Below are positions 508 through 32,586 of a stretch of DNA of 40,350 nt, in pieces (position 1 is the stretch's first letter; every line of letters begins with the position of its first letter). The notes beneath the pieces are model-generated. The model did no database searches and had not been told where the DNA came from. It saw only the letters and a program-made list of their open reading frames with translations. The position numbers and the translations under genes were made by a program. This stretch comes from Candidatus Abzuiibacterium crystallinum. Its GTDB lineage: Bacteria > Omnitrophota > Omnitrophia > Omnitrophales > Abzuiibacteriaceae. The DNA lies in contig PCVY01000045.1 of assembly GCA_002787155.1 (NCBI GenBank), positions 1 to 40,350 on the forward strand, read 5' to 3'.

Positions 508-3500
508 ATGACTATCTGGCAACAGGGAAAATATTTTAAAGTGTTGCGAGTCATTGCATTTGCCGTTGCGATCGTGTTTACACTTAACACAATCGCTTGG
601 GCAGACGGCCAGGGCAATCTGCTCAGTTCACTTCAGCAATTAAATCAACAAGTTTTATCTGATCCTAATCTGAACCCCACCTCGCTTTCCAAAACCGTTT
701 TTGATACGTCGCTCATTCCGGAAAAAATGGGGACCGTGAAGAGCCGCTTTCAAGGTAAAAAAGACGAGCTCGTGATTCACATCCAAGATGCCCATGTGAA
801 CTATGATGCGCAAATGAATATTGCCCGTATCATTGAAACTGTGGCCAAAGCGCAGAAGGTTGATTTGATTAATGTCGAGGGCGCTTCGGGCAAACTGAAC
901 CATGAAGTATTAGCCGCGTATCCCGATCAGGCCGTCAGAAAAGCGGTAAGTGATTACTTTGTCCGCGAAGGACGCTTGAGCGGTCCTGAATACGCCGTGA
1001 TTGCCAATCTTCCAAAGGCAGAAATTTATGGCGTGGAAGAAGAAACGCTTTATGAAGCAAACCGGCAAGCTTTTTTAAAAGCACTTGACCTCAAGCATGA
1101 TGACCGGGACCTTCTGGAATCCCTCGCCCGGGGATTGGATCACCTTAATCGATATATCTTCTCGGACGACCTCCGTGATTTAAAGCATCACCGGGATGCG
1201 TTTCAATCAGGCTCGCTTGCCATGAACGCTTATATTCGTTACCTGGCAGAAACCGCTCGGAAACACAGCATCAGCCTTTATCCTTATACGCAAATTGATG
1301 CGTTTAGAAAACTCTTGGCTTACGAAAAAGACATTGATGCGGCCAGTGCCGAATCAGCCGTCGATATCTTGATCCTGGATTTAAAAAATCATTTGGCGCC
1401 GCTCGATATGGCTAAATTTGTGGCCACCACTGTCTCTTACCGGCGAAATCAAATCGGACAGAAGAAATATTTTGAGTATCTGGACACATTAATTCAACGG
1501 ACACCGGTTGATCTCCAAAAACATCAAACCGCCCTTGAATATATCACCTACATGAATTTATATCACACGCTGGGGATCGGGCTCTTTGACGAAATGAGCT
1601 CCTTGGAAGAAGACCTGAAGAACAAGCTTTTCCGCAACGAAAAAGAAGTGAAGCTGGATAGGTTTTATCGATTGCTTGAGATTTATGAGAACATTTTCTC
1701 TTTTTCACTCACCAAAAAAGACGCTCAGTTCTTTTATGCATACCGAGACGAATTTGATACGCACCGCTTTACGGATTGGATGCAACAGGAAGCCAAGGCA
1801 TTAGGCATTCACGCGGAGCTTTCAAGCGGGCTCGAACGAATTGATGAAGATTTAAAACAAATCGAGCGCTTCTACGAGATTGCCCTAAAGCGAGACCATG
1901 TTTTGATTGAGCGCAGTGTTGAGCGCATGGAAGCCACCCGCCGCCGCGTTTCTGTGATTGTGACCGGCGGATTTCACACACCGGGTATCGAAGCTTATCT
2001 CAGGGCGCGGGATATTTCCTATGTGGTGATCGCACCGCGCATTGAAAAAATTGATGAAACAGAAGACAGCCAGCGCTATGAAGCTGCCATGCGCAATGAA
2101 ATTTCAAATGTAGAGACCTTGCTGAGCGAAATGTATTTTGCGCCCAAATCACCCATGGTTAACGACCCGCACTTTCAATTAGCAGCACATAAATTGCTGC
2201 TGCCCGAAGGTGTTTCTGCCGCAGAACTCGAGCGTTTATTTGTCCAAAAAGATCCCCGCGTTCTTTTTAACACAGTTTTCGCCGATATGATCCTCGGTTT
2301 TGTGATCGCCGGTTTTCCGCCGGAAAAAATACCGGCGGCGGGTCATGCAAAACTAAGTGAACTGATTGATCTCAGCCAGGTGCTGGCAGGATCTGCCGCG
2401 GCAGCGTTTGTTTACACGCACACGTTGGGCAATGCAGAAGTTTATTTCAGGCCGCATGGGATTGTGTATATCGTCGGCGAAGCCCAACTTCAGCCGGAGA
2501 CGGGACAATCTAATCGCATGGTCATGGCAGTTTGGCACGAGAAAGATGATCGTTGGGCCAATGCGGAATTAAAAACAGCCACCCGTGCTCGGATTATTAA
2601 ATTACCCAACATGAAGAGCGAAATACGCATGAGCATGAGTAATTTATCGCCTTTTGAATGGGAATCGCTTAAGACCGTGATCGGCATCGCCAATGAAAAT
2701 GCACCAGAAACACCGCTCAGAGAACCGGAATCAGCTCGTGCTGAACTGAGAGAAAGCACGGAAGGCTCTGAAGATGAAACACCGCCATCGATTTTTGATC
2801 GCACTCCCGAGCAACTTGCCAAGTTAGCCCAAGAGATCACCGCCCAAGAAACACCTATTACGACACCTGAGCCCGTGACGACGACGGATGCAGATCTTAA
2901 AGTAGCAAGCGATCGTTTTAGCAACATTGTTTTTACACAATTGGTTCAAGAAGACTCATCCATCCAATCAGAGGCGGATGCGTTTCGTGAAGCAGTGAAC
3001 GCAGAGGCAGTTCAGGCGGCGGATGACGTTGTCCGGCTTTTGATTGAAAGTCTCAAACGAATAGCCGATCGTTATTTGGCGCAAATAGCAGACCTTTCTG
3101 AACAACTGAGTCAAGATGGCGTTAGTGTTGAATGGTTTAACCAACTCAAAGTATTAGAAAAGCATGTGGGTGGTGTTCAAACCGTTCTGTATGGTCGTCT
3201 GATTATTAAACGTGGGGATCACACTGGTGAACCGCAGGTGACAGGTGCCTCAGAACAGGCCATTAACTCTTTAAGCGTTACGCTGGCCCGTTTCGCCGAT
3301 TTAAAAACGCAGATTGAAACAAAAAATCGTGAGGGCAAGCAAGTCATTGAATCTTACGTGTCTGTTATGAGCGATCATATCAAGGGGATGGAATCAGCTG
3401 ATCCTGCGGTTTGGGCTGCTCTTACCGACGGAGAGCGTTTAGCCATTTTAGATTTCACCATTCAGAATTTTAGCAAACCGGGACTCCAATACAATACATT

Positions 3501-6500
3501 GCTGGATGGTAAAACCGTTTGGCGGTTAATGGCAGATCGATTGGGTATATCACTCAGTGAAAGTGGCATTACTTATACAGCCAGGGTGGTTAAAGCCCTG
3601 TATGCGTTAAACGAACACCGACCAATTCGTGTGATTGTCTCAGATTTTGGCGACATGACGGAAACCGGCGAAAATTATTTTAGAGAAGTGATTGCGTTCT
3701 TGCACGAATTTGCTTTGAACGAAGAAGGACAAGCCCGCAGCGCCCAGCTGCGTTCATTGGATCATATTTTACGTCAACTTTCTCAAGATCGTCCCCATTT
3801 AGTCAACATGGAAGTGTGGACACGGATTTCTGATGCCTTGGAAGAAAGCGCTCGTGATGAAGAATTGGTAGAACCGATTCCATCAACCGAAGAAGTGCAG
3901 CCGGCTGTTGCAGTCAAGCCCGTGCAAGAAACCAAGCCAGCATTGCCGCTTTCATTAAATGGGCTTACCGAAACGCTTGAAGCGATCAAAGCCAAACACA
4001 CTTCGTCTCAGTATGCGGTGAACCGTTTATCACCCAGTGCTTCTCTTCAAGAGATTCGAACATGGATCACTAAAAATTTTGGTTATGACGGTGAAGATTT
4101 CAATGCGTTGGCGCGCGCGTTGGGCGTTTCCATTGATGACATGAATGTTGATGCATGGCGTTATGTTGCGCGCGAGCTTGACCGTGCTCTGGAAAAGAAA
4201 AATGCGATCCATCAGAAAGTGCACACACCCGTGACAGGCAGCTTGATGGAACGCATCAAACAACGCCTCGTCAATGCTTATACATGGCTTGTTTCGCTTC
4301 GATCTATTAAAGCGGTCGTGATGGCAGGCCCGCATTTGCTTTATGTCTTTTTCTTTGGATATTTTCTGCGTAAGTGGCATTTTTATCTTCTGCCTAATGG
4401 CATCAAGATGCCTTTTAATTTGGGCAATGTGGTGAAGCCCATCAAAACACTTACCGTTAACGAATCAATCGATATTCTGGCGGGCGCTTTAATTAACGCG
4501 CATCAAGAAAATTTTGGCGTGGAATTTATGGAATGGCAGAAAGGCAATTATTTCCGCCGCGGGATTTATCATGCGGTTTTACGGTGGCCGCCTGTTCAAG
4601 CGGCAATTTCACGTCTGCAATTCAGCCGCTGGTATTTGTGGGTTGAGCGGTTGATTTTACAGCCATTGGTTATTCCAACCCTTCAATTTTTAGAAAATCG
4701 ATGGAAGCTTGCCGTCTTTGGTGCGCTGGGATTTGGCGTTATCACAGTCGCCGTTCCCGGAAGTGTCGGCGCATTAGGAATTGGCAATATTCCGATTTTT
4801 TCAAATCTTTTACATTTCAGTGCAGACATTCCTGTCATTGGCGTTGCTGCAAAGGCACTGGCGCAAGCTTTCACGATACACGGTTTACTCAATACGGGTT
4901 TGCTGGCTTTTCTGCTGACCTTGCCGAAATTTGCGGCGCAATTTGCCCACATGAAGCACGATCAAATTATTTTAGGCAAGGGAGTTAAAAGAGGATTAAA
5001 TTCGCTGCAATCCCTTGGCCGCCTGGCATATCCGGATGTTCGGTATGTGATTGACACTGTTATAAAAAGTGAAAAGCCTCTCGGCGAGAAGCTTTCCGTT
5101 TTACAGGATTTAACAGCTGTCATTTCGCAGGTGCGGTACAACACGGAATCCGAAAAAACATTTTTACAGCACTTGGCAGCACGGTCTATTTATGAATTAG
5201 AATTGGCACTAGGCAGAGAATCCAGAGCGCCGCCGCATCCTGCCATCACAGTTCATTGGCTACAATCTCTTTTTATCTTTCCGGCTTATGGGATCGCTCG
5301 TTCACTCTTCCACGCCGCTTTCTTAAGCGCCTTTATTTCAACTTTTTTTATGATGACAACCGTCGGCGCCGAAATTGCGCTGCTGGCCGGCGGTCATTCG
5401 CCTCAAGAAATGGGCGTTTCTCAATATGCCGACAAGTTTATTTCAGACGCCGTCTCGCGCGTTCTTCGCACGCCGGTTAATTTATCGATTGTCTCAACGC
5501 CAGTCACTTTTGTGGAGCACAATGCGATTAATTGGGGGCATTGGTCCTTAGATTGGCTTCAACAGCAATCCGGCGTTCATTTAAGTTCAATCACCATGGA
5601 AGCCAGCGCTCATTTGTTGGGTGCCCTTGGCATTCATACGGAAGTGGGTGATTTGGCGGCGGCCGGTTGGCAGTCGTCCGAAATCCAAGAAATGCAATTT
5701 GCTGAGAGTACACTGAAGCATTTCACCCAGCAAACGGGACATCGCGCGGATCTCGCCGATCGAACATTAAGCGCCTTAAAATCGAATACGTTTAAAACAC
5801 CTCAAGCCCGAAGCAGAGAATTTGAACGCATCAGTCTGAGTTTGGCGCTCGAACAAATTGCTCAACAGGTTGTTCCGTTTGATGTGAGCGGCCAATATGA
5901 TACAGGTGAATTGCACGCAGCAATAGACGCATTCGAAAAGAATTTGCAAGACCCCGAGTTACCGATTCGAGGTGCTCAAGCGGGGCGCATCTTACAGTCC
6001 ATCGCGCAGCAAATTCAGATTCTTAACCTGCTTCCGCCGGTTACCAAAACACAAGCAGAATCTTCGGCTGCTGAAATCAAGCCCGAACAGGAGGCCGCGC
6101 CGACACCCGTGAGCGTCACGGACGAAACAACACCGCTTGAAAAGGAACAAGAGGAAGCTGTTGTTAGAGCAAAGGTGCTTCAGCTTCAAGGCCTCACCAG
6201 CCTCGCAGGAACTTTTACTTCGCGTTGGCTCAGGGATTGGGAGAGTCGCATCAAAGATGTTCGGCAAGAAACGGCGAGAAAACAGACATACCTGGCAGAG
6301 CAAAATGCGGACGCACAGTCAAAATTTGTTAACTTGGTGCGGGAAGATTTAGCGAGTGAAATTCAACAAGCGATCCAAAACGGTGCTTTACTGACCAATA
6401 ATGATATCTTGCGCGCGGTAGCTGATTCACCGGATTTCTCCGAGGTATTTGCGAATGTGATGGTTGGTTATTTAAACGAACTCACAGAACAAGCACCGTG

Positions 6501-9500: not shown

Positions 9501-12500
9501 GCTTCATAATATTCATAAAGCCTGGTATACGTTGCTAACGCACAACAATAACCAAAAAGGCAGCGATACCCGCTTGCTTTTGACGCAAGAGAACACAGCC
9601 GATCAGTTGATGCTCAGCGGACAACTCTTGGGTGAAATTGAATCTGATATGTCGCGTCTCAATTCGCAGATGTCGGCAGCAGCCGTGACCAGTCCGGAGG
9701 AAGGGGAAAGCGTCCATGCTGCTTCAGAAGTAGACCGAATTGCTGCCGGTGATATTGTTTTACTTCGCCTTTTGGATCACAACCTGATCAATCTGCAGTT
9801 GGCGGCACGCGCCGGGGCTCAAAGAGCAAAGGAAGAATCTGTCTTTACAGATGAGAATTTGCGGTTGGAGCGAATGGGGCTGAAAAATGGTACGCTGACG
9901 CTAACCAATGAGGTGCGCCAAAAAATTGCTGATGAAGTGTTTAATGTCACGAGTCATTTGAACACTGATATTGCGGCTGCCGTTGCCCATATCGAAAATC
10001 GTTACCAATATTGGCGCTATTTAACGGTAAACGGACTTTTGATAGCACACCCGTTCAGCCAGATTTCCCGAACCTATGTGATTCAAGGGCCAGTTCTGGT
10101 GCCTCAAGATAGCAGCAGCCAAGCGTATCAATTAACGCTGGGGCCTGATATTGCTTACTCTTATTTGGAACCGATTTACAATCGGGAGCGCGAGATAGCG
10201 CAATTACGTGAGAGTCAATTGAAAGAGGATCAGCAGTTTGCGGATGCGCAATTACGCACGGTGGTGGATTTGTCTTCGCATGATTTGGTGCGGACGCATC
10301 AATTTGTTCTGGTGCGCGAACGGCAGTTGAAAGAAATCAAAGATTTGTTGACGCATATCGAAGCCATCTTGACGGCAGTGGGTGACGATGAACCATTCCG
10401 AGAATTGTTAAAACAGCGCCGGACAGAACTCGAAACCGAAAAACAGGCATATCAAATTCAGGCCACCGTTTTTAAATTACTGGCAAATATTCCTTCCTAT
10501 ATTGACGTCCAGCCCTCGCCGGAAAATACATTAAGCCAGAACTTAAGCCTGGAGTCAAATGTCACGGAAGATCAAGTCATTCAGGCCATTGAGAACCACC
10601 CGACGCTGCAGGCTTTTCGAATCAACCTGGATATCTCGGAGCTCAAGCAAAATCAGCTCAAGTGGGAACGATGGATTTCTTCGCGCGCCGATCTTTTTGC
10701 CGGTCTGTCGACGGGGACTGATCAACTTGGCAAACAGTCAATCGCTGATCAATCGGTATGGAGCGCGGGCGCAGAAGCCAGGATCCATTTATTGGCATCA
10801 CTACGCCAGCAGGAGGTTCTTCTTGAGGGAGCCATGTCAGCATTGGCTGAAAGCCAAATTCCCGATGTTGAAGATAAAGTATCTTTTCAGATTTTGAGTG
10901 AATATTACGCCTTTGTACGTGCCAAGCGCCTTTTGGTCGAAAAAACGGAAGACTATTTGGATGCCAGCGAGCGATTTCGAAATATTCAGGACGACTATCG
11001 AAAAGGCCGCAGCCGCAACGATCTTTTTGCTGCTCTCACCCAAAAACACAACGCAGAGTTAGCAGTGGTTGATGCGAATTATGAATTCTTAAAAACAGTT
11101 ACCAATTTAAAGAGCTCACTCGGCTTGATTGGACTCGAGTCCGGCACCGTATCCGGCGAGGTTTCGGCTTCGCGCCAAATGATTCATTTACCAAGCGAAA
11201 AAACAGCCGAGCATTTACAAGCAGAAAATGCATTGCGTGCCAAAATTGAGGCAGCGCAATCGGAACAAGAAAGAATCCAGGCGCAGCCAAAATCACCGCA
11301 AAATGTCGAAAAAACGATCGGCCGATTGGCGGATGTGATTGAGCGAGGCGCGCGTTTGATTAATCCAGAGCGGGATGATGTCAGGACAATGGAAGAAAAA
11401 GTTCTTTTTGAGAAATTACAAGATTCGCAAACAGTTGAATTCAACCGGCGCTTGGAAGCGCCTGAATCACCAACAGAGTTATCCCAGACAAGCCGCGTTT
11501 ACTACGAGGATGACGCGAAAGCCATTGCGGAATCACTTTTTAAAATTCATCAGTTTGAAGAACCTGAATACGAATATATCCGTAAACCTGGCGCTCAAGA
11601 TGATCAGCATGCGGTACGGCATTTACGTAATGTGGTAACCCTCCCGGTGTTTGTTGATGATTTATTCGGCAAAACAGCCCGTGCACGTGATTTGACTTTG
11701 CCATATGAAGAACGCTTGCGTTTGAAACTGATCCGGCGTTTGGCAGGCGATGATTATGTGGGCGGTTATTTAAAATCAATGGATGGTTTGATTCAAAAGT
11801 TACCGAAAGACCACCCCTTGGTTCTCAGGTGGGAGGAACCGCTTGAAAGCGGGTTAACCATTGAGCAGCGTATTCGGATGAGTTTGAGCGAAGCTTCCAA
11901 GAACGATCAAAAACTTGATCTCCGCATCTTAGGACTGTTGGATTATTATGCGATGCGTTTGCTTCCATATAAACCATCTAACGAAGACGTCTTTGGCCAT
12001 ACCATTGATGAAATTGCCGACAAAATATTGGCAGATAAAAGCGATATCCGCGACGTGATTCATAAAGATATGATTTTCTTGCGGTTAGGTTTAGAGGAAC
12101 TTGAAACAAGTGTGTTTAAACTGGACGACGCCGATATCGAATTTCTGACCCGGCCCGGTGTCATTAGTTCCGACATTTGGGAAGGCGAAGAACTTCTAGA
12201 TTACCCGGAATACAAAACGGTTCATTTTCAGGCCTTTTACGCTGAATACCGACATGACCATTATGATGATTGGCGAAAGGCTCATGCCGAGGATCCTGAA
12301 AGCATCTTTGAATCGTTAGCTGAAGAAGCTTTCCGGACACAATTTGTCAGGGAGATTTTTGCGCGATGGCTTGTCACCAAAGGCATTGATATTACCAAAC
12401 GTGCCTACTTTAAATTTTACCGCGATGAAAATGACACCGAATCACTGATAGCCATTCGAAATCTTCTAAAACCCCTTTACGGCAACCTGGCAATCTACGG

Positions 12501-18500: not shown

Positions 18501-21500
18501 GACGATGGATAACGATTTTGTTCCCTGGGCGGATGCTAAGGAAATGTCATTAGTTAGTCAGTATCGTCCGACATTCAACGATACAGAAATTCGGCTCGGA
18601 AGAAATGAAACGATTCAAGATTGGCAAAAGCGAAACCCGAAAGCGATTGTTGTTCTAGAGGAGCGAGATAATCTTTTTTCCAATGGACAAGAGGATATTT
18701 ATTATCAGCGTGAGTTTATACGGAAGGTGAAATGGTCGGTTACGACGGATGGAGGAAATGCGATTACGTCAGGTTCTGCTCGGTATTTTGCAGACATGAA
18801 TCAAAAAAGGCCGGACATTGGCTTGTCACAAGCGAGTACGGGGTATCGAGAAGATAGAACAACCATGCATTGGGAATCAGGGACTTTTGCACATTGGACC
18901 CTTTCACCGCTTCAGGAAGCTGACGCTTATGTTGCCATGGCTAAGCGCGCCGGTGGAAAATATTATGTTACAACGGAGGCAGGTTCTCAAATGGCAAGGC
19001 CAACCAATGAACTGCCTTTTAATCCGTATTACACAAGAACGGTTTTGCTGTCCGGTCTGGCATTTCGGGAGCTTGCCAGACGAATGAGAGGGTTGGGAAA
19101 CTTCGCGGTCGGACAAAATGACATCGACGGCTGGATGGATCCGGTAACAGGCATCCCCACCATGTTTAACGGAGAAGATGAAATTGTGAGCATGACGGCG
19201 GAAGATACATTCGCGATTTATGACTTGATGCGATCACGATGGAAAAGATTTTGGGTCACCACGTATAAGAATTTGCAGGCACGTTCTGAGTTACGCGGAA
19301 TTATTGGAGCAACGGTAAAAAGGATTCTGCTTGGGGTTATTTGGCACGCAGCAATCAACCAATGGTGGATTGGAAGACAGTCTCCCATGAGTCGTAGGTC
19401 ACTGAATGAATTTGAGAAAGATTACCTGTTAAGCCTTGGTGAGATGAACCCGCCTCTACAAGGTGTCAATACGGCAATGTTATTGCGTAAAGACGGCAAA
19501 TACATGGTGACCGATGACCGCAACATGAACATTATTGAAGAAGAGCGCAAAGCTGAATTTAAGTGGAAATGGGTTAACGACCTCCCAACTCTTGTTCTGC
19601 GATTCATTGGAAAAAGCGTCTTTCTGACCTTGCCGGGAAAATATTACGACGATTTCCCAACATTCGGTATGTTCATTACTAATATTTGGGTGGCATCACT
19701 TTTGATGATGCTCTTAACGGCCATTTTCCCAGGATTTTTCGGTACTACCGCGGTCTATTCCGCGATGGTTTTTACTTTTACAATCCTTTCGATTGTGATT
19801 GGAATCCCGCTGGTAGGGGCTCTGCTCAATCGCTTGGAGTCGCCACGTTATTTACTCAAGACAAAGCCAGGTGATAACGGGCTCTTGAGAATAGCAGATG
19901 CCGTTCTTTCAAGGATGGCGGAGATTGTCATTTGGGCTTTTGTTGATACGGTTAAATGGTATGCTGAAAAAGGCATTTCTTCGGTTTCTTACCTTTCCCG
20001 CATTACCGGTGTTTGGTCCATGGTAGAACTCCCTATTAAATGGGTTTGGTTCGTTCGCCATGGACGAGTTGCACCCGCTCCGCCCGCTCCCTTGAAAGAG
20101 AAGACGGAAAAGCTTTCGCGCTATTTTGGAGAAATGGCAAGTTATCGGCGGGGGTTAACGCTAACTTCATCCGCTGCAATGATTGTTATCGCTAAAGTGC
20201 TTCTTGGAGCGCTTACACCATCGCTTCCTTTTATCGGTTCGTTTGTAATTCCTTGGGCTGTTATCGGTTTAGTCATTGGTCTGTTTTTGATGAGTACCGG
20301 ATTTTTTTCTGAAGATTACCAAGGCCCCAAAGGTGTTTTTGCAGGTGCTTATAAAGATATTGGGTTCAAGGGGGTAGCAGATCGTTTGAAAAAGCGGCAT
20401 TTGGTAAATGTTAAATCTCCTTCTGCATTTTTAACGCCGGTTTACGCTTTTCCGGCAGGTATCGGCATAACGATTCTTTGGGGGTATTCGGTTTATAGAA
20501 GCATTAAAGCAGTTTTTCAAAAAGGGAAACCGTTCGACGTCCTTCATTTCAGGACGTACGTCACGCATTTGATGGCTCCCGTTTTCTTCCTTGGATTAGT
20601 CGGATTCTTTATGCCCATCATGATGCTTATTCCTTACCATTGGTTTATGTTGGCCGGAACCATTCTGAGCTTAATGATTGTTGCTCCAATCGGAAGTTTT
20701 CTCTTTGGGTATCAGGCAAATACAAAAAGATTTTATGGGAAGTTATGGAGATTACTGAGAATAGAAGGTAAACCGGTCCGTATAGCATCTCTGATGAATT
20801 ATGCTTACGGGGTCGGTTCCATTGGCACAACCGCTTTATTACTTATCTCCACAAGAGTTTTCCCGCATTCATGGTTTGGAGTTTTCTTTGAAGAACTTCT
20901 TCATGATTCTTTTTTTGCGGCAGCAGCCAGCCTGCCAATGGCGGATGGCGGTGGCACTATGTTTGGAATTGTTTTACAAGGGCTGTCACCTCTCTTCATG
21001 TTTTGGCTGATCATGATTATTGGCGCAGCTATCACGGCTTTTGCGGCAGGAATTGTCTGGTGGGTTTTGCATCGATTAGGAATTGGGAAACTTTCATGGT
21101 TTGCTGAAATACAAACTCACCAGTTCGACAGAATCGCTAAAAAGTACGCTTCCCAACTCCGTGAGGTAAGGAGTCTTGCGAGCAAGAATGACCCCACCGC
21201 TCAAGCTAGAAAAAATTCATTAACTGATGATCTGTGGGGTGCTATTTCCAGGAAAGAACGTGAGGTACTTCAAGATGCCAATAACGGCAATCTCCGCTCA
21301 GCCAAACGCGATCTTTACAGTCAAGTTCGTGATCAGCTAGACGGCCGACTTGATCAAGCAAGCCCGCGCCCTAGATTACGCAGGGAAAGAACGCGCCTGA
21401 AGAAGGTTGCGGTGTTAGCATTGCTTGCAACGACAGTGGGCGGCGCATCCGTCTTGGTCAAACATTTTTTTTCTAACCAAAGTGAGCCTGTTAACCCCAA

Positions 21501-23217: not shown

Positions 23218-23302
23218 CGACTTTTGCAGGCGTTCAATGCCTCAATCCAGAAAAATTTAGCGTAAGCGCTTATTGAACTGTGGGGGTGCCAATCTTATTT
23301 AG

Positions 23303-23316
23303 TAGTACTGAATAGT
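23303..23316. promoter_or_regulatory. Motif TAGTACTGAATAGT, shared with the next gene's upstream region
   Basis: TAGTACTGAATAGT lies 41 bp upstream of the -35 box of the gene at 23426. The same motif with one mismatch (TAGTACTGTATAGT, 28091-28104) lies 40 bp upstream of the -35 box of the gene at 28216. The near-identical sequence and spacing suggest a common regulator site. Confidence 0.4.
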
Positions 23317-23357
23317 TCAATATTATACATTAAAAACTTATATTATATCTTTACATC

Positions 23358-23387
23358 TTGACTAATGTAAAAACTGAGTTTTATAAT
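23358..23387 (+). promoter_or_regulatory. Sigma70-like promoter upstream of 23426
   Basis: TTGACT (23358-23363), an 18-bp spacer, then TATAAT (23382-23387). Both boxes are near consensus in an AT-rich gap of 208 bp. Transcription would start about 30 nt before the ATG. There is no clear intrinsic terminator for the giant gene in this gap, so read-through may also occur. Confidence 0.6.
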
Positions 23388-23425
23388 TTTAGATACGTTG
23401 CTAATTAATAGAAAGAGGGCAATCC

Positions 23426-26400
23426 ATGCTTATGCGTTCAAAGCAATTTTTCTTTAAGGCAATTTCACTGGTCGCAGTTCTCTCCTTTACTTTTACCTCT
23501 ACCGCAGCTTATTCCGATATCACTTTCCGCGATTTAGACCTTGATCAAGATTTAATTTCACACATGCGTCCAATGTCCATTGAAAACACGGGTCCGGCAT
23601 GGTTAGAAGGACTGTTGCCACGTACGACGACAGTCACAAATCGCAAGCCGCAAGTGACAAGAAGTTCTTTATCTGATGAAGGTGCCAAGAAAGATCTTGC
23701 AACTCAGAAGTTACTCAATCGTTCTGAGTTACGGACGCAACGAGGCGTGAGTTGGCGGGATTTGTTATTGCTTGGCATGACGGGTGCTATCGGGTTTTTT
23801 CCGTTAGCGTGCAAAAAAAAGGCTGAAGAAAATCATCAGGCGGCTACATCAAAAGAATCGGCTGAATCCGTTGTAACAGAAACACCTGCCGAGATTCCTA
23901 CAGCGTCCGCCGAAACTCCCGCAGCACCTTCGTCCTATCGGTTTGCGCCAAAGTACTCTCTCAAAAGTCTGGTAAGCGACACATCGCTTCGGGATGCTTT
24001 CTTAAAAGAGTTTCTTTATTGGGATGGGAAATTCCACCAGGCAGGGGTTGCGTACAATGAAAAGTCAGGCATTACCTATGACGGTTATATGTTTGACATT
24101 GAAACGGGGCAATTGGTTGGCGGCCCTCACAATTGGAGCGCTGCGTCAAAAGAGTCTTTACACGTCGCGATTTTAGCAATGGCCATTTCCGGGAACGAAC
24201 AAGCTAAAATGTTTGTTTCTCCGGATAATCCCGGGAAAGCGGAAGAAATTGCCCTCGATCTTTTAACCAAGAAGATAGCAAGTTATGAAAAATTTAATCG
24301 GGAGTACCCGGGTTTTGGAGGTTTTTTGCCTTGGTTTTTGGTGTTTGATGAAGGTTTAAAACCTACTGAAAATCCGAAAAAGGCGGAGTACGACTGGAGC
24401 CATCGTGTGCCTTCGCTGGATAATGGTGAATGGGTTTGGTCGCTTTATCTAGCCTATCACACATTAGCTTCAGCAGGTTACCAGGCGCTTAGCGTACAGT
24501 ACAAAGATTATTTTGATTTGCTTGCAAAAAATGTGGTTACAGTCTTTTATGAAGGTGATGGAAAAGTACGCGCCGAAACAACACTCGTCGATAATCAAGC
24601 AACACCGCGCCCCCGCAATTATGGGAACGAAAAATCATCGTATTATTTAGATGATCCGTATGAGGGGGAGTTGATGGTGTTTTTTATGACCCTGTTTGGG
24701 CAATGGAGCAATTCAAACGACATCGACCGGATGTGGGAATTGAAAAGAAAGAAATTAGTCTCGGCTTCGTACAAAACCCCGGAAGGCCATTTGACTATTC
24801 AGCGCGGGCATTGGTTTTCAGCTCATGAACAGTGGAAATATTTGGTCCTGCCTTATACCTCCATTCCGATCGCCAGAGACATTTTTTTAAATGGAGAAAA
24901 AGCACGGACATGGTATTCGCACACGCATAATATTCCGGGGCTATTTGCTTCAACGTATAATGTCGTAACAGATCATTCTGCACCGCTTTATTTGTCCGCA
25001 TTAGGCATACCTGAGTTGGCAGCCCAGGCGAAAGTGCAGCAAAATGTAGTAGCGCCGTACGCATCATTTCCGGTCATTTTAGCAGCCAGGGAAAGTGGAG
25101 CAGTTGGTATCGGGGAGGCATGGTTAGCCTTAATGCTGCAAGGGCCAAGGATGCAAAATAGTTACGGCAGTACCGAATCGATTAGTGTGCAGGGTACGGC
25201 CATTTCGCCTATTATCACATGGGATACAAAGGGACTGGTCGCACTGGCTTTAATGGGCGGTATTTCAGAACCGATTCAAAAGGCCCTTCAAGAGGATGGA
25301 AAGTTTGATGCCTTTTCGCAGATTGTTGAGCGCGAACATCGCCTAGCGTTTCCGCGGGTCGAAGGAGAGGAAATTGGTTTTGCGGAACCCGCAAGCACCA
25401 TTCCGCACCGCCTGAGAGAGTTTGATGCGAGCGCAGGCACGAGCAAAGTCGATGTTCTTCTCGGAACGAATTTTGACGGTGAAGGCTGGCTGCAAATGGA
25501 ACATCGTTTCGTCAGAGGAAAATCACTATCATTACCGAAAGGGCCCGGGTATGTCTGGAACCGAATTACCAACGTTAATTTGCAGGAAAATCCCATACTT
25601 GACTTTGAAGTCAAATCTGACCGGGAGAGGGGGTGGTTTTTTCTCGAAGTGAAGAATACGGACGATCAGTCAATAACGGCTTTACCGATTGTTATTTACT
25701 TAAAAGGGACAAATGGCGCAGTGAAGCATTTTTCCATTGATTTGCGCGAGCAAGGTTTTGCCAGAGAAAATTTAAAAGGCGCCTTTGTCTCCTTTGCGGA
25801 TCCAACGAGCAGTTTAGAATTCCGTTTTATGCGTTTTATGCCGTCACGCCCCAGGGGCAGAGTGGGTGTGTTATCTTTTGACGGCCGGCGTTTCATTGAA
25901 GGCGGCAAGAATCAGTTCGATAGCAGCAATTTACTGACACAAATTAATTTTAGGATTGGGGATCTTTCTGAGTTCTCACACGATCGCAACCTTCAGGTAG
26001 AGGGTTGGCATGGCTGGGTGTGGGCAAGCACACCTCCTATTGACATTGGTAAGAAGCACTACTTAATCTTAAAAGTACGTACCAATGCGCAGATTTCTTC
26101 ATTTATGGAGTTCAAAAATCAAAAGTCAAAACCGATCATAGGCGGTGCGAATCTAGGCGGGATTAAAATGCCCCTTAATATTCCAAACACCCATGGCAGC
26201 ACCAAAACGCTTGTGATCGATTTGTCGAATCACTTCATGGAAGTGGCAGACAAAACAGCTACGATCATTGCGTTTTCAAATTTCAGCAGCTTGCTAGAAA
26301 TCGAATCCATTCAATTCTCGGAAATAAAACCAAAATCAGAGCTTCGTTCGGTAGCGTATACAACTTCAAGTTTTTCAGACCAAGACTCACCGGTAAAATT

Positions 26401-27970
26401 GGCGACATTTTCTGAAGAACTGAGGCGGGAATGGGAACGATTGGCTGATGAAGGCAAAACGACGCGTTGGCCTGATTTTCAGAATCCGATCAAGATTGGT
26501 AAGTTTGAAGCGGTTATTAATCCCCACGGCTTTGCGGAAGCCCCAAAATGGAAAGGTCTAAAACCTGTCCGGGAAATTCGTGTGGAGGACTTTAATTTTT
26601 ACAAGATAAAAGGCCTTGTTAAGATCTTTGAGCGGCTGCATTTTTTTGGTTCCGACTACTTCGTGATGCCGGATAAAAATCCAACTATGAGGCATCATTC
26701 ATTAATGGTTTCAAGCGAAGTAAGGCCCAACACCCTGACGCAGGGTGATATTCAAACCGCGTTATTGATAACGGCACATCATCCAGATCTGAAATTTCTT
26801 CAAAACACAGAAGCATACACCGCTAATCATTTTCACATGCACATCACCACCCAGGAATTCCCATTTGAGAGATTGGGTCAAGTTAGAGAAAAAGTTCTCG
26901 GAATTAAGAATGGGGTCACGGTCTCAACTTTATCAGAGTGGCCGCTCACCAACGTCAATTTTCGAGGAGATGATCTGAATCGAGTCACGGAAGAAGCCTC
27001 GCAGCTGATTGATGTCTTGAAAGCGGAAAAAGTAATTCCCCATTGGACTTTTGTTCGGAATGGGCAAGTAACTGTTTTTATTGGCAATCAAACACCTCAG
27101 CCAATTGCTGAAGTGGGTGACGTTTTGGGACAATATCACACATTTCACGCGCTTGGAACGGTAGGCGTATTGATGCTTGAAGCGGAAAAGAATGAAGGTG
27201 GTCAAACAAGGGAAAATGAAAAGATTAAGGAGATTCTAGGCAAGCTGACGGAGCGTAATATTGAACAAGCATTTCAATTGAAAAGCCTGAGTGATGAGGC
27301 GTTTGCGACGTTACTTCAGAAAATCGGTCTCCCGTCAACGCCACGTTCGGAATTACGGACCCAAGGTTTTATTGATTCTCTTAATCCAGCATTCGCTTCT
27401 GCTGCAAGCGTAGCAGATGAAGTAGTGCTTGCTTCATCGGTAACGGGCGCAGTGGAATCGCTTGTTAACCCGGGAGCCCGCTCAGAACTGAGAAAGTTCT
27501 TTGCTGTTGATCAGTCAGTTCCTGCCGAAGGCACACGCTTTTCAGTCTTTGGACATTCGCTTTTTAATCAAGCACTTCCGGCGATGGCGGCTTACGCCAT
27601 TGACCAGAATCAGCCGATGGCAGTGGTCTATGCGACTCGATCTGAGCTGCGTGAGATTGAGCGATTGAATGCGCAAGTGGGAGTTCTGGCCTTACCAAAT
27701 GGGCTTCAAGTCGATCCTCTTATTCCCGCTGCTAGTCCGCGTGAAGCGGTTCAAAAACTCAGGCGTTTGACAGCGCGCGCGGGTATTTTAGCGCGTTACA
27801 TTTATTACACTTTACTTGAAAAAGATGCTGATAGAGTCAAAGATGCTTTTCAAGAAGTGAGAGTGTTCTCGCGTCAAGAGTTCGATACCTTTATTCATAG
27901 CGTGGCCGGGCTAGCCAAGCATCTTCACAGTTTTCAAAAAACCCTCAACCGGATTGCCGAAGCTGCTTAG
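23426..27970 (+). CDS. Exported multidomain protein: glycoamylase/GH144-like region, beta-sandwiches, HIT/GalT-like domain
   Basis: 1,514 residues, with AGAGGG 6 nt before the ATG. Residues 1-30 are a signal peptide ending Ala-Tyr-Ser. A linker leads to RSELR (99-103), directly followed by a second signal-like stretch, SWRDLLLLGMTGAIGFFPLAC (109-129), whose Cys129 sits as in a lipoprotein. After a Ser/Ala/Glu/Pro linker, residues about 170-620 resemble alpha-toroid glycoamylase/GH144-type domains (GYMFDIETG, a SKESLHVAILAM helix, GGFLPWF, VPSLDNGEWVWSLY at 328-341). Residues 640-960 look like one or two beta-sandwiches. KSELR (970-974) opens a HIT/GalT-superfamily domain (about 990-1290) with NHFHMHI (His1135, 1137, 1139), closest to GDP-hexose phosphorylases (VTC2/GDPGP). 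RSELR at 1307-1311, 1352-1356 and 1405-1409 marks the C-terminal modules. The HIT motif is clear; the GH family is tentative. Likely role: periplasmic glycan trimming beside the upstream synthase-like giant. Confidence 0.85.
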   Translation: MLMRSKQFFFKAISLVAVLSFTFTSTAAYSDITFRDLDLDQDLISHMRPMSIENTGPAWLEGLLPRTTTVTNRKPQVTRSSLSDEGAKKDLATQKLLNRSELRTQRGVSWRDLLLLGMTGAIGFFPLACKKKAEENHQAATSKESAESVVTETPAEIPTASAETPAAPSSYRFAPKYSLKSLVSDTSLRDAFLKEFLYWDGKFHQAGVAYNEKSGITYDGYMFDIETGQLVGGPHNWSAASKESLHVAILAMAISGNEQAKMFVSPDNPGKAEEIALDLLTKKIASYEKFNREYPGFGGFLPWFLVFDEGLKPTENPKKAEYDWSHRVPSLDNGEWVWSLYLAYHTLASAGYQALSVQYKDYFDLLAKNVVTVFYEGDGKVRAETTLVDNQATPRPRNYGNEKSSYYLDDPYEGELMVFFMTLFGQWSNSNDIDRMWELKRKKLVSASYKTPEGHLTIQRGHWFSAHEQWKYLVLPYTSIPIARDIFLNGEKARTWYSHTHNIPGLFASTYNVVTDHSAPLYLSALGIPELAAQAKVQQNVVAPYASFPVILAARESGAVGIGEAWLALMLQGPRMQNSYGSTESISVQGTAISPIITWDTKGLVALALMGGISEPIQKALQEDGKFDAFSQIVEREHRLAFPRVEGEEIGFAEPASTIPHRLREFDASAGTSKVDVLLGTNFDGEGWLQMEHRFVRGKSLSLPKGPGYVWNRITNVNLQENPILDFEVKSDRERGWFFLEVKNTDDQSITALPIVIYLKGTNGAVKHFSIDLREQGFARENLKGAFVSFADPTSSLEFRFMRFMPSRPRGRVGVLSFDGRRFIEGGKNQFDSSNLLTQINFRIGDLSEFSHDRNLQVEGWHGWVWASTPPIDIGKKHYLILKVRTNAQISSFMEFKNQKSKPIIGGANLGGIKMPLNIPNTHGSTKTLVIDLSNHFMEVADKTATIIAFSNFSSLLEIESIQFSEIKPKSELRSVAYTTSSFSDQDSPVKLATFSEELRREWERLADEGKTTRWPDFQNPIKIGKFEAVINPHGFAEAPKWKGLKPVREIRVEDFNFYKIKGLVKIFERLHFFGSDYFVMPDKNPTMRHHSLMVSSEVRPNTLTQGDIQTALLITAHHPDLKFLQNTEAYTANHFHMHITTQEFPFERLGQVREKVLGIKNGVTVSTLSEWPLTNVNFRGDDLNRVTEEASQLIDVLKAEKVIPHWTFVRNGQVTVFIGNQTPQPIAEVGDVLGQYHTFHALGTVGVLMLEAEKNEGGQTRENEKIKEILGKLTERNIEQAFQLKSLSDEAFATLLQKIGLPSTPRSELRTQGFIDSLNPAFASAASVADEVVLASSVTGAVESLVNPGARSELRKFFAVDQSVPAEGTRFSVFGHSLFNQALPAMAAYAIDQNQPMAVVYATRSELREIERLNAQVGVLALPNGLQVDPLIPAASPREAVQKLRRLTARAGILARYIYYTLLEKDADRVKDAFQEVRVFSRQEFDTFIHSVAGLAKHLHSFQKTLNRIAEAA

Positions 27971-28042
27971 TATGGGTTTTAAGGATAGAGTTGTGGTGAT
28001 GACCAATTAAAACCTCCGCGTGTATATTTCTAATTTGAATCG

Positions 28043-28093
28043 ATGATCCAAACGGTTCGTTCCGAACTTCGTTTGCCTACTATTCAATTATAG
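28043..28093 (+). other. 16-codon mini-ORF encoding an isolated RSELR motif
   Basis: In the gap between two large genes, ATG at 28043 opens MIQTVRSELRLPTIQL and stops at 28091-28093. RSELR is encoded by 28058-28072. There is no Shine-Dalgarno sequence upstream, so translation is doubtful. It may be a remnant of a deleted C-terminal RSELR module, a very short peptide, or a trace of how the motif spreads. Chance occurrence in this gap is unlikely, about 1 in 1,000 if all codons are equally likely. Confidence 0.45.
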
Positions 28094-28114
28094 TACTGTA
28101 TAGTACTATATAGT
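28089..28114. promoter_or_regulatory. TATAGTACTR tandem repeats containing the shared TAGTACTGTATAGT motif
   Basis: TATAGTACTG (28089-28098) and TATAGTACTA (28099-28108) are tandem 10-bp repeats, followed by a partial third copy, TATAGT. Bases 28091-28104 (TAGTACTGTATAGT) match 13 of 14 bases of the motif at 23303-23316. The 10-bp period equals one helical turn, as in repeated regulator half-sites. Confidence 0.45.
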
Positions 28115-28144
28115 TATTTTTATACATATTTATAAACCTTTTAT

Positions 28145-28173
28145 TTGCAAAACAGCGGATTGGATGCTATATT
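28145..28173 (+). promoter_or_regulatory. Sigma70-like promoter upstream of 28216
   Basis: TTGCAA (28145-28150), a 17-bp spacer, then TATATT (28168-28173). Transcription would begin near 28180, about 35 nt before the ATG. GAGGAG (28197-28202) lies within the leader. Confidence 0.5.
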
Positions 28174-28215
28174 CTTTCCTATATAAGGAAGTTGACGAGG
28201 AGTACAAAAAATTCC

Positions 28216-31200
28216 ATGCGTTTAAATGTTCTAACCAATAAAATTATAGCGCTGGTGTCCGTTAGTACCTTGGTTTGGACGAATATGCTTGCTTATTCTG
28301 AGATAAACACCAGCCAAATGCCCGCCGATTTAACAGCTAACACCAGGACCAAATCAGTTTATTCGGCAGGCTTAGCGTCCTTATACCTTGGCGTGCATGC
28401 CCCTGACGCAGCATTAAGCACAGAAGTTGCGCACTCAGAACTTCGATCTTCCCGCTCAAGCCACAGAATTCCTGTTTTTAACGCAGTGCAGCTTCAATTG
28501 ATCGAAGACTCCCTTAATTTATTACCCCATCGAAAAGAAGATGACTACGTCGTTGATGTCAGAGACATTCCGATTATAAAAGAGGTTTTGAAAGTGCACA
28601 AATGGGGTGAGGTTCAAAGAGAATTAGATCCATTGTTTTTAGAGCTAGGTTTTGTGCCGTCTACGGATCCTTATCGCTATCGCCGAAGTCAAAAAGAAGA
28701 TACGCCGGGAGTGCTTATTTTGGGCTTGGACGAAACTGCTTTAGGAATCATGGAAGCCCACCGAATAAAAGGTGCAAACGTGGTTGGCTATGATTCCAGT
28801 CCTGAGAACATGCGGGCGTTGGAACAACTATGGCAAACCAGGGCGCGTCCTATCACAGAAGGAATCGAGTTTTCAAGCACATCAACAACTCTTTTTAGTT
28901 TATTGAACTGGAAAGGTAAAAATGGAAATCTCACCAGAGCTGTGATTCAGAGTGATGTCATTATTTTAAATTTAGATCCCGCTAAATTTAACTCGGTGAC
29001 TCAATATGAGGAGCGTGTTTGGGAAATGGTCGCACAGTTGGCGCAGGCGCTTACGGCGGCACAGGAAAAAGGTCACAACGAATTCAAAACCATTATATTT
29101 AAAAGTATTGTACCGCTGAAAGATGAGAAAACGGCTTTCATCCGGCATATTGATAATCGTCTGCGCATTGCATACAAAGAATTTGAAGTTATTTACCAAT
29201 TATCCATCACGCCTCGCGAACCCTCGACCGATCAAATGAAAGATGAAAAAGTTATTTTTGGCACTTTAGACGGGAAGCCGCCGGGCGGCCGGTGGGCGCT
29301 TGAATCTCTTTACGATTTTTCTAAAGCAACCATCACACAGGCTAGAGATGTTGAAGCAGCTCAATATTTTATTTTGCTGTATTTGGCCGGCAAAATGTCA
29401 GCTTTTAATTCGTTGGAACAGCTGGCAGTTCAAATCGGCGCAGATGCAAATGCTTACCGATTGGGCGCGGGTTTAGACAGCAGACATAAAACCAACCATA
29501 CACGCGGCAGTCTCGGTTTCAGCGGCTGGCCGCTTCGGGTCGCTAAAGAATTTTTAGCACGGGCGGAAGAAGCTCAAGTTGAACAAAAGGATAGCGAGGG
29601 GAGATTTGCGTTTGAACAACTGCAAAAAATCATTCAAAGCATCTTAAGCGTTAACGAAACACAAGTGAGACGGATGCAGGACCTTATCCGCCGGCACATG
29701 CCGCGTTTTACAGTTCATACCCAGCGTCCTCTAGAAGGCCGGCATGTTGTCATTCTTGGTGTGGCCAATAAGCCAGACGGTAAATACGTCACAGATTCTC
29801 CCGTGCTTGAAATGATTAAATTTTTCAAAAGAGAAGGCGTGCGGGAGCTCACTATTTTTGACCCCCACGTTGACCAAGAGAGTTTTACAGCCTGGTATGA
29901 AGCTCAAAAGCAGTTAGATCGCAGTTATGAGGGGATGTTAAAAAGTGTTCGATTCATTAGAGACTCCGGCAGATTAAACAGGCAATTAGGACGAGCCTCT
30001 ATGGTATTAATTGGGATGGCGCACCCGGAAATTGAAGCGCTTAACCCAGAATTTCTTGCAAACACTCTCAAGCGGACTAACGGACCATCCGCTCCTGTTT
30101 TTGACGGGTGGAATATTTATGGTGTTCAGCCTGATGGCAGACGGCCCGATGAGAAGACGCTCTTTTCGCTGAAAGCTGTTCAAGAATCCGAACTGAACTA
30201 TATTCCCTTAAGCCGCCAACCGGTGGGCCCCGCATTTCAAAGCGAAACGTCATTTTTTACCAGGCTTTACGAAAGTGCCAGTGAAGTCAAGCAGGTCATC
30301 CAGGGTGATCAAGCTGATGCGGACAGCGTTTTGAGGCCTGCAGAATTTCTAAAACCTTCTTTGCGGGTGGCGGTCATCGGCGGCGGCTATGTGGGATTGG
30401 TTCAGGCGCTTAAGTTTGCAGAAGACGGACATCAGGTAACGGTAGCGGATATTTCATCCGAGAAAATAGAGGCGCTTAACCGAGGTGAAGTGCCCATTTA
30501 TGAACCGGGACTCGATGAATTATTGAGGAAACATCGCGGCAAAAACATCTCTTTTACGACTGATATAAAAGCCGCCATGCGCAATGCCCAAGGAATTTTT
30601 GTTGCAGTCGGCACGCCTTCGGATTCGGACGGTTCGATTGATCTCAAATACATCGTAGGTGATAATTCAGATGGGCGTTTGCAGGTTTCGCAAAACCACA
30701 GGGTCAATTCGGTCATTCGAGATGTTGGAGAATTAATTACTCAGCTCAAGGCGGAACAGGGAGCATTGAAACCCGATGATAAGAAGATTGTTGTGATCAA
30801 ATCAACAGTAACGCCGGATGTGTTTGACAAAGCGAAAAGAGTTTTATCATCATCATTTAATTTGGAGCCCGGTGTTGATTATTATTTTGGTAGTAATCCC
30901 GAATTTTTAAAAGAAGGTTCAGCCTTGGAAGATGTGTTATATCCGGATCGCATTGTTTATGGGGTTGACCCGGCCATGAGCCCGGAAGCCATTCAGCACG
31001 TGGAAAGTTTTTTACTAAGCCTCAGTTATCCGCATTTGGAAAATTTAGACCGTGAACGAAAAGCAAACTTAAGATCAGTGCCGCCGGTGCGCGTGCTGGT
31101 GACAGATATCCGATCGGCACCGCTTGCCAAATACATGGCAAACGGTAAATTGGCATTTGATATTTCATTGGCAAATATTTTAGCCCCCGTTGCGGCGTTT

Positions 31201-32586
31201 TACGGCGCTTCTTATGTCGAGATTTCTAAAATCATGCGTGCGCATCCGCGTATTTCGGCCAAAACCTTTCTGGAAGAGGGCTGCGGTTATGGCGGCTCCT
31301 GTTTCCCGAAGGATCAGAGAGCCATCACCAGTTTTATGAGAAAAAATGGCGTCAATCCCGAATTATTGGAATCTGCTGACACGATTAATGAGTACGTCAA
31401 AAGCCATGCTTTCGTTGGTTTTGCTGTGGAATCCATTACCGGCCGCCGATGGAACCGCACATTAACTGCCAAACCGCTTGATGATATGCAAATTGCAGTT
31501 TGGGGACTTGCTTTTAAATCCGAAACGGATGATGTCCGCGAATCGCCCGCTTTTAGCGTGATTCATGGCCTCATCAAAGCCGGCGCACGCGTGATTGCGC
31601 ACGACCCAAATCATGGCGCTCGGAAAAACTTTGTGCAATCAATTGGCCGCTGGAAAAGCGAAGTCGATCAACATAAACGAGAAGTGCTGCAGGCGCTCGA
31701 AGAAGCTTCAGAGACTCAAAAATTGGTCATTGTGGAAAATCCTCATGAAGCAACGCGCGGAAGTGATGCATTGGTCATATTGACCGATTGGAAGCAATAT
31801 CAAGTCAGACACGAAACAGCCAGACCAGACGGCATTGATTATAAGCGTGTTTACGACGACTTGACTCCTCGGCCAGACGGAGTACCGATTGTAGCAGGTA
31901 GGCGTATTCAGCGTTTGATTCATCCGTCTGAGTTAGCCGAAATAGGTTTTGATGTTTTTATGGTGGGGCAGCCAACCGTCAGAGCAAGGCGTTCCGAATT
32001 GCGGTTTCATATGTTAACAATTCCACCGCCGGCCAATTTAGCAGCCATGGGTGTTTTGATGGATCTCGCTCATCAAACCGGAGAACAAGTTCCTGCCGGG
32101 AAAGCGAGAGAAACGATGAATCAAATTTTTGGATTGGTCAATACAACAGATACGACAGGTGTGCTAGTGACTTATCAGGCATTGACAGCTGGTTCCGGCA
32201 TCCATGTCACCACACCTGTCTTATTAGCCTTGAGACGCTTTGCCGAAGTTTCGGGTCATCGGATTGCTGTTTTGATATCAGATGATAATATTTTAGGGCG
32301 TTTGATTGACGAAAACGTGAATGCACACTTACCGCCCGAAAAACAAGTCATTAAAGCCAAAGGCTATGAGGCGGCCAAAACAGAATTACACGCCGAGGGT
32401 GTAAGCGCTGTCCATGTGATTGCTTCACAAGATGAAAGTCATGGACCGCAAAATGCACTGCTTAGACGAATCGGGGATTCCGTTCAATTTATCAGTACAC
32501 AAGACGGTTTGTTCAGCGCATTGGGTATTACCAGGGAACTCGCCGACTCGTTTCGCTCAGAGCTTAAACTCGCTTATTCAGCGTAA
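28216..32586 (+). CDS. Tandem UDP-glucose/GDP-mannose dehydrogenase family protein with export-type N-terminus
   Basis: 1,456 residues from the ATG. A TTG at 28192 would add 8 residues, but its AGGA lies only 2 nt away, whereas GAGGAG precedes the ATG by 13 nt. Residues about 5-28 form a signal-peptide-like helix ending Leu-Ala-Tyr-Ser. HSELR (73-77) opens the enzyme part. Unit 1 (about 165-630) keeps the fold's landmarks (LGLDETALGI, FKSIVPL, a late LGVANKPDGKYVTDSPVLEM) but has GFSGWPLRV (434-442) where the catalytic Cys and Lys should be, so it is probably inactive. Unit 2 (about 715-1245) has GGGYVG (722-727), GTPSDSDGS, KSTV, NPEFLKEGSA, GYGGSCFPKD with Cys1029, and LAFKSETDDVRESPA. It should make UDP-glucuronate or a similar sugar acid with NAD. 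RSELR (1259-1263) starts a C-terminal alpha/beta module, and the chain ends with RSELK near the C-terminus. An export signal on an NAD enzyme is odd. Confidence 0.88.
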   Translation: MRLNVLTNKIIALVSVSTLVWTNMLAYSEINTSQMPADLTANTRTKSVYSAGLASLYLGVHAPDAALSTEVAHSELRSSRSSHRIPVFNAVQLQLIEDSLNLLPHRKEDDYVVDVRDIPIIKEVLKVHKWGEVQRELDPLFLELGFVPSTDPYRYRRSQKEDTPGVLILGLDETALGIMEAHRIKGANVVGYDSSPENMRALEQLWQTRARPITEGIEFSSTSTTLFSLLNWKGKNGNLTRAVIQSDVIILNLDPAKFNSVTQYEERVWEMVAQLAQALTAAQEKGHNEFKTIIFKSIVPLKDEKTAFIRHIDNRLRIAYKEFEVIYQLSITPREPSTDQMKDEKVIFGTLDGKPPGGRWALESLYDFSKATITQARDVEAAQYFILLYLAGKMSAFNSLEQLAVQIGADANAYRLGAGLDSRHKTNHTRGSLGFSGWPLRVAKEFLARAEEAQVEQKDSEGRFAFEQLQKIIQSILSVNETQVRRMQDLIRRHMPRFTVHTQRPLEGRHVVILGVANKPDGKYVTDSPVLEMIKFFKREGVRELTIFDPHVDQESFTAWYEAQKQLDRSYEGMLKSVRFIRDSGRLNRQLGRASMVLIGMAHPEIEALNPEFLANTLKRTNGPSAPVFDGWNIYGVQPDGRRPDEKTLFSLKAVQESELNYIPLSRQPVGPAFQSETSFFTRLYESASEVKQVIQGDQADADSVLRPAEFLKPSLRVAVIGGGYVGLVQALKFAEDGHQVTVADISSEKIEALNRGEVPIYEPGLDELLRKHRGKNISFTTDIKAAMRNAQGIFVAVGTPSDSDGSIDLKYIVGDNSDGRLQVSQNHRVNSVIRDVGELITQLKAEQGALKPDDKKIVVIKSTVTPDVFDKAKRVLSSSFNLEPGVDYYFGSNPEFLKEGSALEDVLYPDRIVYGVDPAMSPEAIQHVESFLLSLSYPHLENLDRERKANLRSVPPVRVLVTDIRSAPLAKYMANGKLAFDISLANILAPVAAFYGASYVEISKIMRAHPRISAKTFLEEGCGYGGSCFPKDQRAITSFMRKNGVNPELLESADTINEYVKSHAFVGFAVESITGRRWNRTLTAKPLDDMQIAVWGLAFKSETDDVRESPAFSVIHGLIKAGARVIAHDPNHGARKNFVQSIGRWKSEVDQHKREVLQALEEASETQKLVIVENPHEATRGSDALVILTDWKQYQVRHETARPDGIDYKRVYDDLTPRPDGVPIVAGRRIQRLIHPSELAEIGFDVFMVGQPTVRARRSELRFHMLTIPPPANLAAMGVLMDLAHQTGEQVPAGKARETMNQIFGLVNTTDTTGVLVTYQALTAGSGIHVTTPVLLALRRFAEVSGHRIAVLISDDNILGRLIDENVNAHLPPEKQVIKAKGYEAAKTELHAEGVSAVHVIASQDESHGPQNALLRRIGDSVQFISTQDGLFSALGITRELADSFRSELKLAYSA

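Follow-up and report, generated by a model that had tools for sequence, protein, structure and literature searches.

The pentapeptide RSELR, which recurs in three adjacent large or giant open reading frames (ORFs) on contig PCVY01000045.1 of Candidatus Abzuiibacterium crystallinum (Omnitrophota; GenBank assembly GCA_002787155.1), marks the module junctions of a class of megaproteins, predicted to be exported, that is found across the order. As to its function, we consider that it is probably an endoproteolytic processing site of exported polyproteins, likely with a dedicated envelope protease. What the data show is the motif with its enrichment, its place in linkers, the class of proteins that carry it, the residues preferred around it and its variants by lineage; export and cleavage, like the enzyme responsible and what the modules do and become, are what we infer from them. 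To our knowledge, and after literature searches, no bacterium is known to use an internal junction peptide throughout its genome in this way. No paper found by those searches mentioned RSELR in such a context, and only alginate lyases turned up.

The window, meaning the whole 40,350-nucleotide stretch that was analysed (positions 1 to 40,350 of the contig), holds three consecutive ORFs of interest at 508-23217 (gene 1, 7569 residues), 23426-27970 (gene 2, 1514 residues) and 28192-32586 (gene 3, 1464 residues), a total of 10,547 residues. Together they contain seven exact copies of RSELR, where local shuffling in 50-residue blocks gave 0.025 on average and never more than two in 3000 shuffles; a preliminary description of this DNA had estimated about 0.02 from rough residue frequencies. 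All seven copies that it reported, and all its near matches, were recovered in frame at their positions, with RAELR itself at 2737-2751, and its statement that the remaining ORFs of the window carry none was borne out (0 found). The 59 other anagrams of RSELR averaged 0.03 copies each in the same three proteins, being absent or single. The NusA of the home assembly has its nearest named relative in Candidatus Omnitrophota (64%, Go_SlDig_bin_476). In a first sample of the 2.48 Mb home assembly RSELR was the top pentapeptide of large ORFs (68 copies against 0.16 expected) and had no copy in 39 thousand residues of neighbouring other ORFs. Stretches around motif sites were then counted in this genome and four relatives, all of them metagenome-assembled, so that the figures are not unbiased genome totals; they held 432 RSELR in 102 ORFs, against about two copies of each other anagram in the same proteins. 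A single one of these ORFs, coding for a 464-residue sugar-transferase-like protein, is a chance hit. The enrichment is genome-wide in the source organism and extends to its relatives. Chance or composition as the explanation for the whole set is refuted by the shuffles and the anagram counts, and we give it virtually no credence. A degenerate DNA pattern for RSELR found 58 sites in the home genome, and only 3 when reversed.

Home-genome copies in ORFs whose 5' end is resolved number 77, and each has its own 15-base DNA spelling; it is therefore the peptide that is conserved and not the DNA, as had been proposed from a few copies. The variants follow a simple grammar: Arg (or His, Lys), Ser (or Ala, Thr), always Glu, Leu (rarely Phe) and Arg (rarely Lys). 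An RSELR-coding 15-mer also lies between genes 2 and 3 (28058-28072), in the gene 2 frame and past its stop, and is either chance or a remnant.

The idea that RSELR marks module junctions held up well. None of 80 motifs fell inside a Pfam match in the home-genome proteins that have such matches (7.2 expected), and conserved blocks spanned only 7 of 408 motifs, against 12.2 ± 1.4% expected from random positions. Both flanks are disorder-prone (z about 9 each side), and the median spacing from motif to motif is 396 residues. Copies typically stand where the N-terminal domain ends and where the C-terminal one starts. AlphaFold places the RSELR of the gene 3 C-terminus in a stretch with a predicted local distance difference test (pLDDT) score below 50, after which a confident alpha/beta domain begins. 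Transmembrane segments are enriched in the 60 residues behind the motif (33 against 17 expected) and not in those ahead of it (16 against 18), Met stands directly behind it 16 times (7.6 expected), and several modules open directly behind it with a signal of Tat-like (RSELR-MDDDSRLTRRDFLKVVSLGAISYFG) or lipoprotein-like type. Internal signal peptides of these two types were noted at residues ~2320-2370 of L069, residue 2012 of L049 and residue 1902 of L084. Modules with their own Met or signal behind the motif look like formerly independent precursors that were fused there. The features of the three window genes are as follows, all on the forward strand (+).

508-23217 (+): gene 1, predicted exported megaprotein of 7569 residues with signal peptide, N-terminal QDAH domain, OEP-like stretch, motifs and C-terminus ..GRMA
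508-606 (+): gene 1 signal peptide, a hydrophobic N-terminus, boundary by eye
517-2103 (+): gene 1 N-terminal QDAH domain, from alignments and a profile match (E 2e-151, including the signal peptide); Tiki/EreA/ChaN-like by weak evidence
2737-2751 (+): RAELR variant behind the QDAH domain, gene 1
10582-11124 (+): outer membrane efflux protein (OEP) stretch, PF02321, E 1.8e-10, gene 1
19282-19296 (+): RSELR, gene 1
22555-22581 (+): GSELRSELR, an overlapping double motif in gene 1 (GSELR 22555-22569, RSELR 22567-22581)
23426-27970 (+): gene 2, predicted exported protein of 1514 residues, its sole Cys at a lipobox-like position
23426-23515 (+): gene 2 signal peptide, end ..AYS, boundary by eye
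23720-23734 (+): RSELR, gene 2, 68 residues past the signal peptide
23756-23812 (+): lipoprotein-signal-like segment (LLLLGMTGAIGFFPLAC) immediately behind RSELR in gene 2, from its sequence
26333-26347 (+): KSELR variant, gene 2
27344-27358 (+): RSELR, gene 2
27479-27493 (+): RSELR close to the start of the C-terminal domain, gene 2
27497-27967 (+): gene 2 C-terminal alpha/beta domain, end ..RIAEAA, by phmmer and alignment
27638-27652 (+): RSELR within the C-terminal domain region of gene 2, by alignment; not a linker
28192-32586 (+): gene 3, predicted exported protein of 1464 residues with two UDP-glucose dehydrogenase copies
28192-28299 (+): gene 3 signal peptide, end ..AYS, boundary by eye
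28432-28446 (+): HSELR variant past the signal peptide, gene 3
30364-31806 (+): second UDP-glucose dehydrogenase copy of gene 3, catalytic motif GGSCFPKD kept, with the protein's only two Cys in that stretch
31990-32004 (+): RSELR, gene 3, in the linker ahead of the C-terminal domain (pLDDT < 50)
32152-32583 (+): gene 3 C-terminal Rossmann-like domain, end ..LAYSA, AlphaFold model with pLDDT > 90 over most of it
32554-32568 (+): RSELK variant in the last helix of gene 3 (AlphaFold model), 10 residues from the C-terminus; not a linker

The HIT and glycosyltransferase domains previously suggested for these proteins were not recovered, there being no Pfam match to either in the window proteins at E ≤ 0.01; HFHMHIT in gene 2 is HIT-like by eye. 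The first UDP-glucose dehydrogenase copy of gene 3 has lost its catalytic Cys and the second keeps GGSCFPKD. An NAD-dependent enzyme of this type is odd behind a signal peptide.

The carriers of RSELR, the chance 464-residue ORF apart, form one class with a Sec-type signal peptide, Cys depletion, a C-terminal Ala and shared architectures. Comparison was with other ORFs from the same sampled stretches, all called mechanically. Scored by a simple hydropathy rule and not a trained predictor, 61 of 67 carriers have a signal-peptide-like N-terminus, against 102 of 308 other ORFs; the motif is enriched in exported-looking proteins and, from its placement described above, is not buried in conserved folds, the two points on which the preliminary description had said its proposal would stand or fall. 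Cys makes up 0.03-0.11% of carrier residues and about 0.7-1.3% of residues in the other ORFs of the five genomes, a roughly 20-fold depletion. Some of the Cys that were retained look functional, namely the lipobox-like Cys of gene 2 and those of the UDP-glucose dehydrogenase stretch CGYGGSCFPKD, which holds the only two in gene 3 and has a matching stretch in a protein of the relative G021. The C-terminal residue is Ala in 62 of 70 carriers and in 24 of 274 other ORFs (Fisher p ~3e-39); with Ala at -4 in 38 of 70, a preference for Tyr at -8, and Ala, Ser or Met at -2, the consensus is A-x-[ASM]-A. Such a tail is possibly a sorting or recognition tag. Tails of this form, for example at 32569-32583 and 27953-27967, somewhat resemble those of tail-specific protease or ssrA type.

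Two N-terminal architectures are shared among the carriers: a signal peptide with a motif at residue ~55-130, and a signal peptide followed by the QDAH domain of ~520 residues with a motif at ~490-1050. A C-terminal domain of ~150-240 residues often has the motif or a variant at its front, and a fold search with it gave no PDB match at E ≤ 0.001. The modules that Pfam recognises are mostly of cytoplasmic type: UDP-glucose dehydrogenase, NUDIX, helix-turn-helix (four), CsrA (four), cyclic-nucleotide-binding (three) and HPr, together with Glu dehydrogenase, phosphoglucomutase, pseudouridine synthase, asparaginase and HEAT. An exported-looking protein of 3199 residues (L015:6718-16317) carries CsrA stretches four times, besides matching NUDIX weakly, and another (L009) has four helix-turn-helix domains.

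Cytoplasmic-type modules, and a catalytic UDP-glucose dehydrogenase Cys kept despite the purge, could suggest that RSELR is a maturation and export signal in the manner of Plasmodium PEXEL, its processing licensing the modules for transfer into a partner or prey cell; UDP-glucose dehydrogenase, CsrA, helix-turn-helix proteins and HPr could work there. PEXEL, which is cut by plasmepsin V (PMC10900883), is likewise a pentameric motif behind the signal peptide of many otherwise unrelated exported proteins; here the motif lies 20-80 residues past the signal peptide in many carriers, and host-dependent traits have been reported for the phylum (PMC10066038). However, PEXEL has the form RxLxE/Q/D and stays near the N-terminus, whereas RSELR and its variants lack RxL and recur along the whole protein, so that they do not belong to it. 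We identified no machinery for translocation, and in many modules an active site cannot be recognised; we regard this explanation as unlikely.

After the last Arg (432 RSELR), position +1 favours Ser (+9.2 sigma), Thr (+7.7) and Ala (+3.7) and disfavours Pro (-2.8) and Arg (-3.7); Ser, Thr or Ala occur there in 187 of 432 against a background of 20%, compared with 112 of 432 at -1. Position +2 favours Asp (+6.3 sigma) and Glu (+4.2), one or the other being present in 116 of 432 (14% background). Pro is enriched at -2 (+6.2 sigma) and at +3 and stands at +1 in only 7 of 432. The relatives with other spellings of the motif, described below, prefer Asn, Ser, Gly and Thr at +1, with Pro in 2 of 242. 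Cleavage after Arg predicts avoidance of Pro at +1, and its avoidance within Pro-rich linkers fits that prediction, although it is not proof.

Further evidence comes from drift of the motif between lineages, for which spellings were taken from unbiased k-mer counts in the relatives' megaproteins. G014 has RSEVR, RSEMR and RSEIR; G018 has RSEVR, RAEVR and RAEAR; RSEMR recurs in G005, G023 and G039, RSEVR in G027, LSDSR in G020 and AxSLG in G015, G007 and G013. The megaproteins of these genomes are all low in Cys and their complete C-termini mostly end in Ala, and AxSLG stands in equivalent places, behind QDAH and ~240-320 residues ahead of the C-terminus. The residue at position 4 (Leu, Val, Met or Ala) varies by genome (chi-square 837, 65 degrees of freedom), with a p-value that is indicative only, as copies within one genome are not fully independent. 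Concerted change across many proteins points to one trans-acting, co-evolving reader per lineage. If the motif were passively left over from gene fusion, or served as a structural linker such as a helix cap or hinge, there would be no such reader; this would be in keeping with a motif that marks former gene starts and sits in linkers. Yet a structural role needs neither the invariant Glu nor a genome-specific position 4, and 77 distinct DNA spellings are not those of a copied DNA joint, which leaves this explanation very improbable.

A reader could also bind without cutting. On such a view the linker pentapeptides would be bound, much as in an array of short linear motifs, by a scaffold or receptor on the cell surface or inside a compartment that strings uncut megaproteins along the envelope, and this would fit exposed linkers, many copies per protein, concerted drift and the invariant Glu equally well. 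Megaproteins of relatives have been proposed as coats or adhesins (PMC10066038). Cleavage is the better fit to a position beside domain starts with fused signal peptides and to small +1 residues with Pro avoided, and no candidate receptor was identified; we consider docking possible but rather less than likely. The preliminary description had offered a protease site, a sorting or anchoring tag and a mark of modular fusion. The first now appears best supported, because of the residue preferences after the last Arg and the lineage-wide drift of the motif, with docking as its main rival.

In the processing scheme a Sec signal peptide would take the precursor out of the cytoplasm, where a dedicated protease would recognise the pentapeptide in flexible linkers and cut after the last Arg (P1), ahead of a small residue. 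This would free the N-terminal QDAH domain, each of the modules, whether structural or enzyme-like, and, together with its A-x-[ASM]-A tail, the C-terminal domain. Several points weigh against this scheme. AxSLG lacks Arg, and a single Arg-specific enzyme could therefore not act in every lineage; the +1 and +2 preferences could also stem from a binding motif of more than five residues; the RSELR at 27638 in the C-terminal domain region of gene 2 and the RSELK in the last helix of gene 3 are not in linkers; and ends of BLAST alignments near the motif were not significantly enriched over random positions. It should also be considered that no protease was identified and that no peptidase family tested occurs in every motif-rich genome: C11 is absent from 58 genomes, C14 was found only in G021, and S8, S1 and S41 are patchy.

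Matches to the PorU-type C25 peptidase of type IX secretion were absent from 18 genomes, but control genomes gave none either. A small periplasmic trypsin-fold S1 family without PDZ (A4, e.g., L275:1328-2095) is common in the order; it is a weak lead, being missing in the motif-rich G030 and G032, and its position 189, judged by eye, is not a constant Asp. Across the motif-rich genomes just one enzyme-like element was seen in every one, the QDAH domain, which occurs in 54 of 58 relatives, some of them poor in RSELR, and reaches 34 copies in a genome. Its alignments show AH, EG and GxE invariant and GGFH nearly so. Weak matches are to ChaN (E 0.02), DUF5694 and DUF5682, with EreC and HopBA1 folds at E 0.6-2.4, and a PDB sequence search gave nothing useful. 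The invariant His and Glu and the weak similarity to ChaN, EreC and HopBA1 suggest a place in the Tiki/EreA/ChaN superfamily. Some members of that superfamily are thought to be proteases, and QDAH itself as the junction-cutting protease is a lead, not a result.

A broader picture can be put forward tentatively, and we rate it somewhat more apt to fail than to hold: a polyprotein economy of the whole order, in which tens of formerly stand-alone proteins would have been joined into megaproteins purged of Cys. One signal peptide would take such a fusion out of the cell, a co-evolving protease would cut it at the pentapeptide of its lineage, and sorting would rely on a new C-terminal domain of the A-x-[ASM]-A type, with action possibly in a partner or prey cell. 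Giant ORFs of the same phylum that are very long, poorly annotated and probably exported have been described, are discussed mainly as adhesins or coats (PMC10066038; PMC12057145) and are read as single huge proteins of that kind with unclear integrity (PMC12057145); the available portions of the two papers mention neither a junction motif nor a purge of Cys, and likewise no C-terminal Ala and no architecture shared across the order. If these giants are polyproteins with sequence-defined junctions, the question becomes the identity and destination of the released modules. The motif is in addition a ready-made parser for splitting such proteins into modules for annotation and folding, and its concerted drift between families would provide a natural experiment through which the protease or receptor that co-evolves with it might be traced.

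Known sorting and processing systems offer partial likenesses. Cargo of the type IX secretion system also combines a signal peptide with a C-terminal domain preceded by an unstructured linker (PMC4804311). In contrast to its Ig-like beta-sandwich, the C-terminal domain here is modelled as alternating alpha/beta with an A-x-[ASM]-A end, which would place it outside that system, where cleavage by PorU is sequence-independent (PMC4804311). The hydrophobic helix and basic tail of LPXTG/sortase or PEP-CTERM substrates were absent from the 70 carrier C-termini, most of which end in A-x-[ASM]-A. Nearest in kind, and a precedent for such processing, are the light-harvesting complex (LHC) polyproteins of dinoflagellates, in which SPLR separates the modules and its Arg is the point of cleavage (PMC3480386). 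Both sets of proteins are targeted and have a short conserved peptide ending in Leu-Arg between independently folding modules, with cleavage at Arg reported there and inferred here. The SPLR polyproteins are a eukaryotic plastid family of related modules, whereas RSELR joins unrelated modules in about 100 sampled bacterial ORFs and has several lineage spellings. By analogy the RSELR system may work like SPLR junctions, without being a member, as organisms, modules and motif all differ. Modules within a carrier are mostly unrelated and not copies of each other, and only one protein is strongly repetitive inside. This is the product of L010 and L011 (G000:C6:38529-71945), one protein of ~11,100 residues with many diverged internal repeats, which is ~50% identical to a protein of G030 over ~2600 residues.

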